DNA of 64,000 nucleotides from Nocardioides humi. Its GTDB lineage: Bacteria; Actinomycetota; Actinomycetes; Propionibacteriales; Nocardioidaceae. The stretch covers positions 1,736,001 to 1,800,000 of the forward strand of contig NZ_CP041146.1 of the NCBI RefSeq assembly GCF_006494775.1. The letters are read 5' to 3'. Made by a program: the position numbers and the translations under genes. Position 1 is the stretch's first letter. Every line of letters begins with the position of its first letter. The notes beneath the pieces were generated by a model. That model ran no database searches. It was not told the DNA's origin and saw only the letters and a program-made list of their open reading frames with translations. Positions 2,913-56,092 of this stretch are shown here, piece by piece.

Positions 2913-3852
2913 ACGCCCCGCCGTCCCGGCCCTCGTCCCCCAGCGTCGGCGTCGTGATCCCGACGCACAGCCGCCCCGAGCTGCTGCGCCGCGCGGTGGC
3001 CGCCGTCGTCGCGCAGGACTACGCCGGCGTCATCGAGACCGTCGTCGTGTACGACGGCACCGAGCCCGACCCCCACCTCGCGGCGGTCGTCGGCGCCGCA
3101 CCGGAACGACCGGTCCGCATCCTGCGCAACACCCGCACCCCGGGCTTGGCGGGCACCCGCAACACCGGGATCCTCGATCTCGACACCGACTACATCGCGT
3201 TCTGCGACGACGACGACCACTGGCTCCCGGAGAAGATCACCCGGCAGGTCGAGCGCGCCACCCGGCCCGACCGGCCGGAGATGGTGACCTGCTCCATCAC
3301 CGTCGACTACGACGGCCGGCGCAGCGACCGGCTGGCCGGCACCGAGACCGTCACCCATGCCGACCTCACCCGCTCCATCCTCGCCATGCTGCCCCGTCGT
3401 CCTTCTTCTTCGACCGGGCAGCGCTGGTCGAGCGGATCGGCCTGGTCAACGAGGAGCTCCCGGAGAGCCAGCTGGAGGACTGGGACATCAAGCTGCGCGC
3501 CTCGAGCCGCCGCCCGATCGCCCACATCGACCGTCCGCTCACGATCGTGCAGTGGGGTCGGTCATCGCTGTTCGCGCGTCGGTGGAAGTCCAAGAACGAG
3601 GGGCTGAAGTGGATGCTGAAGCACCACCCGGCCATCGTGGCCGACCGCCGCGCCGCGGCCCGGGTCTACGGCCAGATCGCCTTCGGCGCCGCCGCCGACG
3701 GCGACCGCGCCGAGTCGTGGCGCTGGGTGCGCCGCTGCGTGCGCGCCGATCCGCGCCAGTGGCGTGCCGTCGTCACGCTGGCGGTGCTGGCCCATCCGCC
3801 CAACGCCGAGCGGGTGCTCAACGCCCTCCACCAGTTCGGGAGGGGCGTATGA
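2909..3852 (+). CDS. Family 2 glycosyltransferase (one-base frameshift)
   Basis: A GT-A fold glycosyltransferase, about 314 residues. The N-terminus has the nucleotide-sugar strand VGVVIPTHSRPELL, then AGTRNTG, and the metal-binding acidic motif CDDDDHW at about residue 95. The frame breaks in CCCC 3392-3395. One added C joins LAMLPP to SSFFFDRAALVERIG, followed by the acceptor-region segment LEDWDIKLR typical of GT2. No membrane anchor is seen, so it should act on lipid-linked sugar at the inner face of the membrane. It overlaps its neighbours on both sides by four bases. Sugar donor and linkage cannot be told from sequence. Confidence 0.75.
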
Positions 3853-5171
3853 GCGACCTGCACCCCACCGTCGAGGTGGGCCGGTTCGTCACCGTGCTCC
3901 TGCGCCGGTGGCGCACGATCGTGGTCTGCCTGGTCGTCGCGATGATCGCCGCGGCGGCCTACCTGGCGCTGGCGCCGACCTCGGTCACGGCCACCGCCCA
4001 GGTGAACATCGAGGTGATCACCGACCAGCCGTTCTCCGGCCAGCGACAGCCCTCGGCCCTGATCGACGCGGCGACGGAGCGGGAGCTGGCGCGCTCCACC
4101 GAGGTCGTCGAGCGCGCGGCGGAGGCGCTCGGCGGCGGCATCACCGCGCGCCAGGTCCGCCGCGGTCTGAGCGTCGAGGTGCTCGCCGGGGCGACCGTGA
4201 TGCGGATCGGCTACACCGCCGACAACGCCACGACCGCGGTGAAGGTCGCCGACGAGGTGGCCTCCCAGTACCTCCGCTACCGGGGCGAGCTCGCCACCGA
4301 GCGGCAGCAGGCGGCGCTGGCGCCCCTCATCGAGCGCCGGGACGCGCTCCAGGCCCAGCTGCAGCAGGCCGCGACCGGCCGGACCGCCCTGCTGAACGAG
4401 CTGAGCCAGCTGGTGAGCCAGATCAGCGGCATCACCACCCTCGGCACCTCGGGCGGCACCTTCCTGGTCCACGCATCGGACGTCGCGCCCACGGTGTCCC
4501 CACGCAGTACGACGGTCCTGGCGGCCGCCGGCCTGCTCGGCCTGCTCGGCGGTGCGGTCCTCGCAGTGGTCGCCGACGCCGTACGACGGCGGGTGCACGA
4601 TGCCACCGACGTCGTCGCCGGCGGGGGTGGTCCGCTGCTCGCCAGCCTGCGGGCGCGGCAGCCCGCCGAGCTCGCGTCCGAGCACGACGCCGATGCGCTG
4701 CTCACCGCGTGGCACCGCCTGCGTCCCCAGATCGACGTCGACGTCCCCGTGATGCTGGTCGTCGGAGCCTCCGACGGAGCGCCCGCCGCGGAGGTGGCCC
4801 AGGCCCTGGAGCAGGCCGCGGGCGCCGTGGAGGCGATGGAGGCGATGGAGTCCGGGAGCCCGACGATGACGCGACGTCCCCGCGCGGTGCCGGTGCCGGC
4901 CGAGGAGGGCCACGCCGTCGCGCTCAGGCTCGCGCCACGGGCGGGCCTGGTGGTGATCGCCGCCGAGAAGGGGCGCACCACGGTGCGCGAGATCGACGCG
5001 CTGGTCGACCACCTGGCGGCGGTCAGCGTGCGCCCCGCGGGCACCGTCGTCGCCCACCGGTTCCGCGAGGCCGGCACGGCGCCGCACCGGCGCGGCGTGG
5101 GCGGCGGTCCGACGCCCCTCGCGCTCGAGGCCGGCGCCGCGGAAGCCACCGGCCGGGGAGGGAGGCAGTGA
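3849..5171 (+). CDS. Wzz/Wzc-like chain-length protein with degenerate kinase domain
   Basis: A 440-residue membrane protein with Wzz topology: one membrane helix at about 23-42 and a second at about 221-243. Between them is an extracytoplasmic region with a coiled-coil-like, Gln/Ala/Leu-rich stretch at about 150-190. The cytoplasmic tail looks like the remains of a Wzc-type tyrosine kinase. A strand VPVMLVVGASDG lies where a Walker A would be, but it has no GxxxxGK[ST], and no terminal tyrosine cluster is present. It therefore probably sets polymer length without phosphorylating itself. The start was chosen at the ATG overlapping the previous stop. Role inferred from topology and operon. Confidence 0.65.
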   Translation: MSDLHPTVEVGRFVTVLLRRWRTIVVCLVVAMIAAAAYLALAPTSVTATAQVNIEVITDQPFSGQRQPSALIDAATERELARSTEVVERAAEALGGGITARQVRRGLSVEVLAGATVMRIGYTADNATTAVKVADEVASQYLRYRGELATERQQAALAPLIERRDALQAQLQQAATGRTALLNELSQLVSQISGITTLGTSGGTFLVHASDVAPTVSPRSTTVLAAAGLLGLLGGAVLAVVADAVRRRVHDATDVVAGGGGPLLASLRARQPAELASEHDADALLTAWHRLRPQIDVDVPVMLVVGASDGAPAAEVAQALEQAAGAVEAMEAMESGSPTMTRRPRAVPVPAEEGHAVALRLAPRAGLVVIAAEKGRTTVREIDALVDHLAAVSVRPAGTVVAHRFREAGTAPHRRGVGGGPTPLALEAGAAEATGRGGRQ

Positions 5172-52951: not shown

Positions 52952-53575
52952 ATGCCCCACCTGCGCCGATCCGCGCTCGCCGGACTGCTGCTGGCGGTCG
53001 TTCCCGCCACGGCCCTCGGCGGCTGCGGGTTCGACTACCCCACCGACCGGGTCAACACCATCGCCGGGGGCGTCAACGACCGCAGCGGCGACGTCGACGC
53101 GCTCGGCATCCGGGTGCTCGCGACGGCGCAGGGCGAGGGCCGGCTGATCGGCTCGCTGTCCAACAACCTGCGCGAGACCGCGTCGCTCGACGCCGTGTCG
53201 TCGTCCGCGGGCATCACCGCCGGCGCGTTCGAGCCGGTCGAGGTCGCGGGCCGCGGCACGGTCAACCTGGCCACCGCCGCCGTGGTCCCGCTCACCGGCG
53301 ACTTCACGGCCGGCGACGTCGTGCCGCTCGAGCTGACGTTCAGCGACGGTACGACGCTCAGCCTCGACGTACCGGTCGTCAAGCCCTGCTTCCAGTACAC
53401 CCAGGTCCCCACCGACCTCCCCAGCGAGGACCGGTCGGCCTCCGCGAAGGCGACCGACGGCGAGGCCGCCGACGTCGCCGCCGAGGAGGAGGGCGACGAG
53501 GCGCACGCCGAGGAGACCGGCGACGCCACCTTCAACTGCGCCGACCAGGCGCCCGAGCCCGAGAGCGCGCACTGA
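52952..53575 (+). CDS. LpqE-like lipoprotein
   Basis: A 207-residue lipoprotein. The signal peptide ends in the lipobox LGGC at about residues 22-25. The exported domain is beta-rich ([40 protein letters not shown]), resembling LpqE/PCu(A)C-like folds. A Glu/Ala-rich C-terminal tail follows ([17 protein letters not shown]). lpqE lies beside carD in mycobacteria, which supports the call; here the UbiA gene lies between. Copper binding, seen in some relatives, is not supported: the usual His/Met ligands are not evident. Its stop overlaps the gpmA start in TGATG. Confidence 0.62.
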
Positions 53576-54321
53576 TGACGTTCACGCTGGTCCTGCTCCG
53601 CCACGGCGAGAGCGAGTGGAACGCGAAGAACCTCTTCACCGGATGGGTCGACGTCGCCCTGACCGAGCAGGGCCGCGGCGAGGCGGTCCGCGGCGGCGAG
53701 CTCCTCCGGGAGGCCGGCATCCTGCCGGACGTCGTCCACACCTCGCTGCAGCGCCGGGCGATCAACACCGCCGCGCTGGCGCTCGACGCCGCCGACCGGC
53801 ACTGGATCCCCGTCCGCCGCTCCTGGCGCCTCAACGAGCGCCACTACGGCGCACTGCAGGGCAAGGACAAGAAGGCGGTCAAGGACGAGTACGGCGAGGA
53901 GCAGTTCATGCTCTGGCGCCGCTCCTTCGACGTCCCCCCGCCCCCGCTGGCCGACGACGACGAGTACTCCCCCGCCGGCGACCCCCGCTACGCCGACCTC
54001 GGCGACGAGCTCCCCCGCACGGAGGCGCTCAAGCAGGTCATCGAGCGGCTGCTCCCCTACTGGGACGCCGGGATCGTGCCGGACCTCCGCGCCGGCCACA
54101 CCGTCCTCATCGCCGCCCACGGCAACAGCCTGCGCGCGATCGTGAAGCACCTCGACCAGATCAGCGACGCCGACATCGCCGGCCTCAACATCCCCACCGG
54201 GATGCCGCTGGTCTACGAGCTCGACGAGAGCACCCTCGCCCCCACCGTCCCCGGTGGCCGGTACCTCGACCCCGAGGCGGCCGCCGAGGCCGCCGCCGCC
54301 GTCGCCAACCAGGGGCGCTGA
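53575..54321 (+). CDS. gpmA: 2,3-bisphosphoglycerate-dependent phosphoglycerate mutase
   Basis: A 248-residue glycolytic mutase that interconverts 3- and 2-phosphoglycerate. The phospho-histidine motif is [19 protein letters not shown] at residues 6-24. [14 protein letters not shown] provides the substrate pocket and [15 protein letters not shown] holds the second His. Length is standard. In mycobacteria gpm1 is next to senX3-regX3; here a DUF559 gene, two 63-bp repeats and phoU intervene. The stop is followed at once by a strong hairpin terminator. Confidence 0.95.
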
Positions 54322-54339
54322 CCCCCGCTCTGCGGGGGT
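54321..54339 (+). terminator. gpmA terminator hairpin
   Basis: ACCCCCGC and GCGGGGGT pair over eight bases around a TCT loop, starting at the last base of the gpmA stop codon. No T-run follows. It is also the outer part of the left 63-bp inverted repeat. Confidence 0.6.
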
Positions 54340-54384
54340 CGTGTGCCTGAGAGCGCGGATATCCGGGGTCTCAGGCACACGACC
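54322..54384. repeat. Left 63-bp inverted repeat (nested hairpins)
   Basis: This copy has two structures. The first is the 17-nt CCCCCGC-TCT-GCGGGGG hairpin. The second is a palindrome with arms TCGTGTGCCTGAGA (54339-54352) and TCTCAGGCACACGA (54369-54382) around the core CGGATATCCG. It matches the reverse complement of 55375-55437 at 59 of 63 positions. The two copies bracket the DUF559 gene. Confidence 0.85.
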
Positions 54385-54460
54385 CAGCGCGAGCGGGCGT
54401 ACCTGTGGAGAACCGGAAGCCGAGGTTCGGCCCGACCCCGCCCGAGGGCAGGCCTCGGGG

Positions 54461-55388
54461 ATGCGCCCGGACGTCCAGGATCTCGCCGCCCGCCAATCTG
54501 ACATGCTCGCCCGCCGCCAGCTGACCGCGCTCGGCGTCGACTGGGACCAGGTCGAGCGCCAGGTCCGAGCCGGCCGGTGGGCCGCGCGGTCGCCCCGGGT
54601 CCTCAGTACCACGACAGGTGAGCTCACTGTCGAGCAACGACGCTGGCTCGGCGTGCTCCACGCCGGTCCACGCAGCCTGCTGGGCGGCCTGACCGCCGCC
54701 GCGCGTCACGGCCTGCAGGGATGGGACCGCCACGACGTGACCGTGCTGGTCGACGACGAGCTGTCGTTCGAGCCGGTCGACGGCATCCGCTTCTTCCGCT
54801 CACGACGCCCCGTTCGACCTGCTCCGCGACCCCCGCCCGGGCATCCCCTCCAGCCGGCTCGAGCCGGCGCTGCTCCTGTGGTCCGGGTACGACGCCTCGC
54901 TCCGCGCCGCCCACGGCGCACTCGCGGCGGCGGTCCAGCAGCGCCTGACCACTGCCTCGCGGCTGATCACCTGGACCGAGCAGCTCCGGCCGCTGCGGCG
55001 CGCGGCGGGATTCCGCCGGATGCTGCGCGACGTGGAGGGCGGCGTCCACTCGGGCGCCGAGCGCGACATCGCGCGGCTCTGCCGCAATTACGGCATCCCT
55101 CAGCCGACTCGCCAGCGCAGTCGGCTCGACTCCGCCGGCCGCCGGCGCTGGACCGACTGCGAGTGGCCGCTGCCGGGTGGCCGCGCGCTGGTGCTCGAGG
55201 TCGATGGATCGTTCCACATGGAGGTGGCGCAGTGGACGGCCGACCTGCGTCGGGCACGCCGGCTCACGACGCCCGACCGGGTCGTCGTACGGGCGTCCGC
55301 GTTCGAGGTGCGCCACGAGCCGGGCGAGGTGGCCCGCGACCTCATCGCCCTCGGCGTGCGCCCCCTCGTCGTGCGGTCGTGTGCCTGA
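54461..55388 (+). CDS. DUF559/AbiEi-like endonuclease-fold protein, frame broken
   Basis: About 309 residues when repaired. The N-terminal part (ARRQLTALGVDWDQVERQVR, AGRWAARSPRVL) resembles AbiEi-type winged-helix antitoxin domains. The C-terminal part has the DUF559/Vsr-like nuclease layout: HSGAERDIARLCRNYGIP, then EVDGSFHMEVAQWTADLRR and RVVVRASAFEVRHEPGEVA. The frames do not meet near 54800-54815 (SRRP, then FDLLRDPRPG). The shift is +1 or -2, unlike the single-base losses elsewhere, so this may be a real mutation. Its last three codons and stop lie inside the right 63-bp repeat. No methylase or toxin partner is adjacent. Confidence 0.6.
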
Positions 55389-55437
55389 GGACCCGGATAT
55401 CCGCGTTCTCAGGCACACGACCCCCGCGGAGCGGGGG
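55375..55437. repeat. Right 63-bp inverted repeat (nested hairpins)
   Basis: Reverse-complement counterpart of 54322-54384 with 59 of 63 matches. The palindrome arms GGTCGTGTGCCTGAG (55375-55389) and CTCAGGCACACGACC (55408-55422) enclose the same CGGATATCCG core. The outer hairpin CCCCCGC-GGA-GCGGGGG (55421-55437) ends two bases from the phoU stop and may terminate phoU. The DUF559 stop codon is at 55386-55388. Confidence 0.85.
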
Positions 55438-55438
55438 C

Positions 55439-56092
55439 TCAGGCGGCGGGAGCCGGGTTGTGGCCGGTGACGACGAAGATGACCCGGTTGGCGACCGAGA
55501 CGGCGTGGTCGGCGATCCGCTCGTAGTAGCGGCCGAGCAGGGCGAGGTCGACGGCGGCCTCGACGCCGTGGGCCCACTCGCCGGAGAGCAGCTCGGTGAA
55601 GCTGCGGCGGCGGAGCTGGTCCATCTCCTCGTCGTCGCGGCCGAGGGCGATCGCGGCCTCGACGTCGCGGCCGGCGATGACCTCGGTGACCCGGGCGACC
55701 ATGTCCTCGGCGACGGCGGCCATCCGCTCGAAGGTGGGGCGGACCTCGTCGGGGACGGCGACGTCGGGGACCCGCAGGCGGGCGATCTTGGCGACGTGGA
55801 CGGACAGGTCGCCCATCCGCTCGAGCTCGGCGACCATGCGCAGCGCGGCGACGATGGTCCGCAGGTCGCCGGCGACCGGCTGCTGGAGGGAGAGCAGGGC
55901 GAAGGCGGAGTCCTCGACCTGCTCCCGCGCGCGGTCGATCTCGGCGTCGTTGCTGATGACCCGCTCCGCGATCGAGGAGTCGCCGGTCATCAGGGCCTCG
56001 GTGGCCTCCCCGACCGCGACCTGGACCCGGCGGGAGATGCCGGCGAGGTCGTCGAAGATCGCGTCGAGCTGGTCGGTGTAGGCATCACGCAT
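55439..56092 (-). CDS. phoU: Phosphate-signalling protein PhoU
   Basis: A 217-residue helical protein of two three-helix bundles, each with a metal-binding E/DxxxD-type segment (AEIDRAREQVEDSAFALLS and LLGRYYERIADHAVSVAN). It links the Pst transporter to the SenX3/RegX3 system and keeps the regulon off when phosphate is plentiful. It diverges from senX3 with a PHO box between, so it is probably itself under RegX3 control. Pst genes are not in the window. Confidence 0.92.
   Translation of the reverse strand: MRDAYTDQLDAIFDDLAGISRRVQVAVGEATEALMTGDSSIAERVISNDAEIDRAREQVEDSAFALLSLQQPVAGDLRTIVAALRMVAELERMGDLSVHVAKIARLRVPDVAVPDEVRPTFERMAAVAEDMVARVTEVIAGRDVEAAIALGRDDEEMDQLRRRSFTELLSGEWAHGVEAAVDLALLGRYYERIADHAVSVANRVIFVVTGHNPAPAA

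Follow-up and report, generated by a model that had tools for sequence, protein, structure and literature searches.

Structure of the gpmA–phoU Locus

We analyzed a 64,000-nt stretch of the Nocardioides humi genome (hereafter, the window; positions 1736001–1800000 of a single 6.22-Mb contig, NZ_CP041146.1), in which a frame-broken gene for a predicted nuclease lies between two copies of a palindrome. The ends of this unit are arms of 63 nt each (54322–54384 and 55375–55437) that lie in opposite orientation with a spacing of 990 nt and are complementary at 59 of 63 positions (94%). Each arm consists of a 46-bp palindrome with a small CCCCCGC/GCGGGGG hairpin on its outer side. The left palindrome (GTCGTGTGCCTGAG-N18-CTCAGGCACACGAC) occupies positions 54338–54383 and its hairpin 54322–54338, directly 3′ of the gpmA stop codon; the right palindrome occupies 55376–55421 and its hairpin 55421–55437, just ahead of the phoU stop codon. 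Folded as single DNA strands, the 63-mers gave z-scores of −8.8 and −6.8, and the 46-mers −10.1 and −7.8, with 0 of 200 shuffled sequences equaling the original in each case. Searches of Rfam with the palindromes returned only sub-threshold microRNA look-alikes.

The gene is read on the forward strand and is broken in this assembly into an N-terminal part (54461–54811) and a C-terminal part in another frame (54810–55388 including the stop codon; coding to 55385). The break falls at 54804–54811. Intact homologs are known (loci L039 and L041; L and G numbers denote loci and genomes throughout), and L041, for example, is open along its whole length. The last three codons and the stop codon lie inside the right palindrome. 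Outside the unit are gpmA on the left (53575–54321, forward strand) and the convergent phoU on the right (55439–56092, reverse strand). The initial annotation had described this arrangement, i.e., inverted arms that each carry a hairpin and a palindrome, a gene end lying within the right copy, a frame break, and a position between gpmA and phoU, and all of it was upheld by our comparison of the arms, the folding results, and the homologs.

Gene Family and Predicted Protein

Using the 192-residue C-terminal part as query (E-value threshold 0.001), we found homologs in 186 of the 215 Nocardioides genomes. Only one copy was found in the window's own genome; other genomes often have two to seven matches, distant ones counted. 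In the protein database, where the best 8,000 candidates were scored, at least 1,031 family members match at an E-value of 1e-10. The intact protein has about 305 residues, and the complete unit of palindrome, gene, and palindrome spans about 1.0–1.1 kb. Structure prediction suggests that the N-terminal half is an AbiEi-like, winged-helix DNA-binding domain, in agreement with homologs that match AbiEi models or the AbiEi fold, and that it is joined to an EDxHD/Vsr-like nuclease half whose predicted fold is nearest to the homing endonuclease I-Bth0305I. Acidic and histidine residues in the motifs SGAE, TDCEW, LEVDG, FH, and TAD are invariant across 30 diverse homologs, and all are present in the C-terminal part encoded in the window.

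The relation to DUF559 (PF04480) lies below the family cut-off of 20.6 bits: the two C-terminal pieces of the window gene score 17.0 and 15.9 bits and four homologs 12.7–18.4 bits, and a Pfam search of the whole genome for DUF559 gave no match at an E-value of 0.001. PF04480 is annotated on one of the 120 database homologs listed; where names are given among these, they are hypothetical or DUF559 proteins. The distant member L121 matches AbiEi models (best E-value 1e-9) and a methyl-directed restriction enzyme model (E-value 4e-4), and PADLOC gave no match for the close homolog L041. The L041 protein, to which that of Nocardioides sp. Root190 (L158) is a 100% match, had no match at an E-value of 1e-5 in 72,556 plasmid records and one, with 34% identity, in 50,697 phage records. 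The latter lies at 3670–4491 of MT837139.1, a 7.6-kb record from human feces labeled Bacteriophage sp., which is possibly a bacterial fragment.

Flanking Palindromes at Homologous Loci

Pairing of this gene with palindromes is frequent across several actinomycete genera. For the genus Nocardioides we examined 90 loci, comprising the 30 top matches, among them the gene of the window, the 40 that follow in the list, and 20 distant homologs; roughly 20 more, with 42–57% identity, were left out of the set. At least one flanking palindrome is present at 70 of the 90 loci (both sides, 50; one side, 20; none, 20). Among the 70 closer loci, 40 have palindromes on both sides, nine on the left only, four on the right only, and 17 on neither. 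The 20 distant homologs failed as a negative control, as 17 of them bear palindromes of their own, of the GACGTCAT and other types (both sides, 10; left only, 5; right only, 2; none, 3).

A scan of GTDB genomes yielded at least 80 loci, all of which, going by record titles, belong to Actinomycetota; some of them are genes already present in the genus set. Palindromes flank 63 of the 80 loci on at least one side (both, 39; left only, 12; right only, 12; none, 17), against a background of 113 other equally scoring palindromes over 659 kb (0.10 per 580 nt). Outside Nocardioides, units with palindromes on both sides occur in Knoellia flava (L165), Marmoricola endophyticus (L167, L184), a Microbacterium metagenome-assembled genome (L177), Flexivirga (L202, L225), Aeromicrobium endophyticum (L203), and Pimelobacter simplex (L217).

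The inverted orientation seen in the window is not a rule of the family. Of 46 units whose two palindromes are alike, 26 fit better as direct and 14 as inverted repeats, and 6 are tied (sign test, p = 0.08). The palindromes of one unit, L072 in genome G106, are identical direct repeats (46 of 46 positions). Direct repeats could permit a unit to collapse by recombination to a single palindrome, which could explain some of the solo copies described below.

Covariation of Palindromes and Protein

Within a unit, the left and right palindromes match, and both vary along with the protein. In the 50 genus units with palindromes on both sides, left and right copies share on average 0.83 of their positions, compared to 0.51 between units, and a palindrome's own partner ranked first in 33 of the 50. 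Protein distance and palindrome similarity are correlated at −0.73, with 0 of 999 permutations as extreme. Because relatedness inflates this permutation test, we also examined 22 orthologous loci from 22 genomes, with shared neighbors on both sides (single linkage); 18 of these loci have both palindromes. Judged from these comparisons, the two palindromes of a unit change in concert and in place, since in 18 of 18 orthologous units the left palindrome is more similar to the right one than, on average, to the left palindromes of its orthologs.

Self-complementarity persists as the inner sequence varies. Across 90 distinct 44-mers of the TCGTGTGCC type from the loci sample, inner pairs are complementary above the expectation for independent positions at most positions, the excess being slight at positions 11 and 12 and absent at 13. 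One solo site (L012) is common to the window's genome and G098, where a 1,705-bp alignment with 86% identity spans the site; there, two inner pairs have changed on both sides (A-T to G-C and C-G to A-T), and one pair has broken.

Dispersed Palindromes

The initial annotation had called for a genome-wide search with the 63-bp sequence, and copies of its palindrome do occur beyond the locus and are linked to the gene family. The 46-bp palindrome is present 10 times in the window's genome, twice at the locus and eight times as solo copies. The outer arms GTCGTGTGCC...GGCACACGAC are identical in all 10 copies; the inner 18 bases vary and remain largely self-complementary. The sequence CGGATATCCG, on which the initial annotation had centered the palindrome, is carried by only four of the 10, so that the constant part is the outer arms and not this core. 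As a search key in the window, CGGATATCCG exactly matched just the two copies, and allowing one mismatch gave 3 matches compared to 2.67 expected.

Seven of the eight solo copies lie just past a gene's stop codon (six at 5–20 nt, one at about 38 nt), and five of these seven are between convergent genes, with flanks read by eye. GC-rich stretches like the outer hairpins also precede some solo copies. The eighth (L009:3019–3064) is read in frame inside a thiD-like open reading frame (ORF), with almost no net gain in length at the palindrome in an alignment with solved ThiD proteins. About 40 residues are missing further on in this ORF, so it may be decaying. Because the only gene found is frame-broken, the unit in the window and the eight solo copies are probably relics.

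Dispersed palindromes of the same type occur mostly in genomes with a close homolog of the gene. Arms of the form TCGTGTGCC...GGCACACGA were found in 61 of the 215 genus genomes, with top counts of 96 (G020), 32, and 28. Five or more TCGTGTGCC copies are present in 21 of 31 genomes with a close homolog vs. 10 of 184 others (odds ratio 36.5, p = 1.7e-14), where close means an E-value of 1e-60 or better, a cut-off chosen after seeing the lists, and the p-value ignores relatedness. Among the 10 palindrome-rich genomes of the second group, some (G009, G229, G186, G026) encode a homolog that is partial or less closely related, and seven of the 31 genomes with a close homolog lack any TCGTGTGCC copy. 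A second type, with arms GACGTCAT...ATGACGTC, is found in 139 of the 215 genomes at up to 86 copies and is absent from the window's genome. The reversed arm pattern has zero matches in every genome listed.

The 96 TCGTGTGCC palindromes of G020 lie in a 4.5-Mb genome with 7% contamination, two contigs of which (C15 and C35) are apparently duplicated; this genome is a candidate for recent palindrome expansion. In G101 (C1:326763–327046), four GACGTCAT palindromes stand in tandem within 300 bp, resembling a cluster of bacterial interspersed mosaic elements (BIMEs). Positions of 24 listed solo copies in other genomes, called with a crude gene caller and hence noisy, were convergent for 11, tandem for 8, divergent for 2, inside a gene for 2, and unclear for 1. 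Pairs of solo palindromes without the gene (L258–L260) enclose ordinary ORFs, and one of these cases is likely a gene duplication. Within this set, the two solo palindromes at L260:972–1770 (G098) flank a glyoxalase-like ORF, the left one standing at the L012 solo position.

Site Comparisons among Relatives

The initial annotation had also proposed comparing gpmA–phoU junctions in relatives that lack the unit. We took the best 30 of 208 genomes by phoU match, the window's own included, and found gpmA in 20. The window's genome has a gap of 1,087 bp; in G033 and G098, both of which have the gene there, it measures 1,055 and 966 bp, and in G194 a gap of 1,362 bp holds other content. The other 16 of the 20 have a short gap of 0–225 bp, in some cases containing other palindromes.

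Four solo sites were compared with 20 stretches from 16 relatives searched, and the cognate palindrome is absent from all 20. At the purK–purE site, seven of 10 relatives are empty and three have other palindromes, as read by eye (L245–L247, in G148, G227, and G098). The presence of other kinds of palindrome in three relatives, in a gap that contains a solo copy in the window's genome, suggests that this gap is a palindrome hot spot. At the L010 site, G187 carries a palindrome of another family of the same kind and two other relatives a third type; at L015, both relatives compared have a terminator-like hairpin; and L013 is variable in the five relatives compared. In the sequences compared here, slots past gene ends hold different palindromes in different lineages, since the cognate palindrome is absent and other palindromes or hairpins stand at the L010, L015, and purK–purE sites.

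Interpretation and Comparison with Known Systems

The unit in the window is probably a disrupted version of a gene unit bounded by palindromes, belonging to a REPtron-like system in which a nuclease would take the place of the transposase associated with repetitive extragenic palindromic (REP) sequences, the REP-associated tyrosine transposase (RAYT), and would itself account for binding, cutting, and spreading. The protein would bind its own palindrome, probably as a dimer, and nick or cut it or its extruded hairpin or cruciform. Repair of the break, or copying of the hairpin, would then seed solo palindromes, which would persist mostly immediately downstream of genes, and the gene itself would be largely inherited in place with rare moves, like RAYT genes. 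The more general proposal is that Actinomycetota hold a RAYT-independent, REP-like system, in which an AbiEi–nuclease fusion recognizes a clade-specific palindrome, spreads it via cut-and-repair, and co-evolves with it as lock and key; we judge the case for this to be evenly balanced.

The alternative that fares best, though we think it unlikely, is that the palindromes are ordinary bidirectional terminators or mRNA stabilizers between convergent genes, with the DUF559-like gene merely lying between two of them; the initial annotation had offered a duplicated bidirectional terminator as its simpler reading. The placement of the solo copies past stop codons and in convergent gaps agrees with this, as do the strong folding of the copies and the presence of other palindromes or hairpins in the same slots of relatives, and the palindromes may have a side role in termination. 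However, selection on an RNA stem should favor G·U pairs on the transcribed strand, and we saw no strand bias. In 96 left and 75 right palindromes (from all 90 genus loci plus 35 of the 80 from GTDB), G·T and A·C mismatches are balanced (55 vs. 51 on the left, 38 vs. 38 on the right), giving no sign of RNA-level selection on the gene-strand stem. Termination alone also leaves unexplained the matching pair around the gene, the differences between clades, the tracking of the protein, and a copy number that follows gene presence.

A lesser prospect is that the protein is a domesticated AbiEi-type autoregulator, the flanking palindromes its operators, the solo copies its regulon, and the nuclease half a relic. 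The promoters of AbiEi antitoxin genes contain inverted repeats to which the antitoxins bind, an AbiEi-like fold is predicted here and AbiEi models match, and in the GTDB loci that have a left palindrome it lies ahead of the matched protein, mostly starting 90–260 nt before it. Against this, the solo copies in the window's genome are past 3′ gene ends rather than in promoters, among the 56 genus loci with a right palindrome, 37 have the gene's stop codon overlapped by it, and the nuclease residues are invariant in the 30 diverse members.

It is quite improbable that the palindromes are REPs moved by an unrelated transposase, with the nuclease gene as passenger. REP palindromes with a known candidate mobilizer do exist (PMC8266576), as do CGTC-tagged REPs apparently without a dedicated transposase (PMC3733652). 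However, none of 22 palindrome-bearing genomes, the window's own included, gave a match to the RAYT domain Y1_Tnp, vs. 5 of 14 controls (other transposase classes were not scanned), and palindrome sequence follows the divergence of the nuclease-family protein. A defense or addiction module, whose own palindromes would keep the nuclease off the chromosome or inactive while foreign DNA is attacked, is hardly probable either, as the AbiEi and restriction enzyme matches of L121 in its favor are set against the lack of a PADLOC match for L041 and of any partner gene directly beside the window unit, where the neighbors are gpmA and phoU.

Returning to the reading of a palindrome-bounded nuclease gene, its likeness to REPtrons (TnpAREP/RAYT with REPs and BIMEs) is one of genome anatomy: both have a mostly single, chromosomal gene flanked by cognate palindromes and many dispersed palindromes, mostly past gene ends. 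The likeness to REP/RAYT pairs drawn in the initial annotation was useful in this respect: palindromes pair with the gene family across genera, solo copies exist, and 16 of the 20 gpmA–phoU gaps are short. The transposition or homing suggested there is an inference. The system is thus a REPtron by anatomy, because one mostly chromosomal gene is flanked by palindromes that are also scattered in the genome, but not by enzyme, because a predicted homing-type, EDxHD-like nuclease with an AbiEi-like half replaces the Y1/HUH tyrosine transposase. The palindromes are also different: they measure about 46–50 bp, and none of the 10 copies in the window's genome is edged by a GTAG tag.

In Rickettsia palindromic elements, the palindrome is read in frame within protein genes. 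The thiD-like ORF of L009 is similar in this respect; unlike those elements, however, it is the one in-frame case here, the other seven solo copies being intergenic. These elements are mentioned in PMC3733652, which in 2013 described the CGTC-tagged REPs as apparently lacking a dedicated transposase. CGTC-tagged REPs are likewise dispersed palindromes at gene ends, but they have stems of 8–9 bp and an unpaired CGTC tag, in contrast to stems of about 20 bp and an attached gene here, and the five phyla from which they are listed do not include Actinobacteria (PMC3733652).

EDxHD homing endonucleases such as I-Bth0305I and Vsr-like nucleases offer the nearest solved fold for the predicted C-terminal half, and I-Bth0305I dimerizes on a target of nearly 60 bp (PMC3943268). 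Unlike I-Bth0305I, the gene described here was not found in a phage or intron setting, and it lies between two whole palindromes with further copies elsewhere in the genome. It differs from AbiEi antitoxins and Rv2827c in its fusion to a nuclease half and in the lack of an AbiEii nucleotidyltransferase gene beside it at the window locus.

We found no published account of this pairing of a nuclease gene with palindromes among the matches listed in the open-licence literature. REP palindromes are common bacterial repeats, and the enzymes associated with them in the papers cited here are RAYTs. If a second, unrelated type of enzyme also has palindromes of its own, repeat systems of this kind would seem to have evolved more than once. 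If the proposal holds, the palindromes would form a sizeable part of the intergenic repeats in these genomes, co-evolving with the gene as lock and key. The clade-specific versions also provide ready pairs of protein and DNA site for direct tests of recognition and cutting.

Additional Repeats near phoU

Downstream of phoU in close relatives (L129, L136, L137, L139, L141), a palindrome around GCCGGTCGACCGGC and repeats of CCGACCCGGCAGAAAGT recur; these look like further intergenic repeat families.
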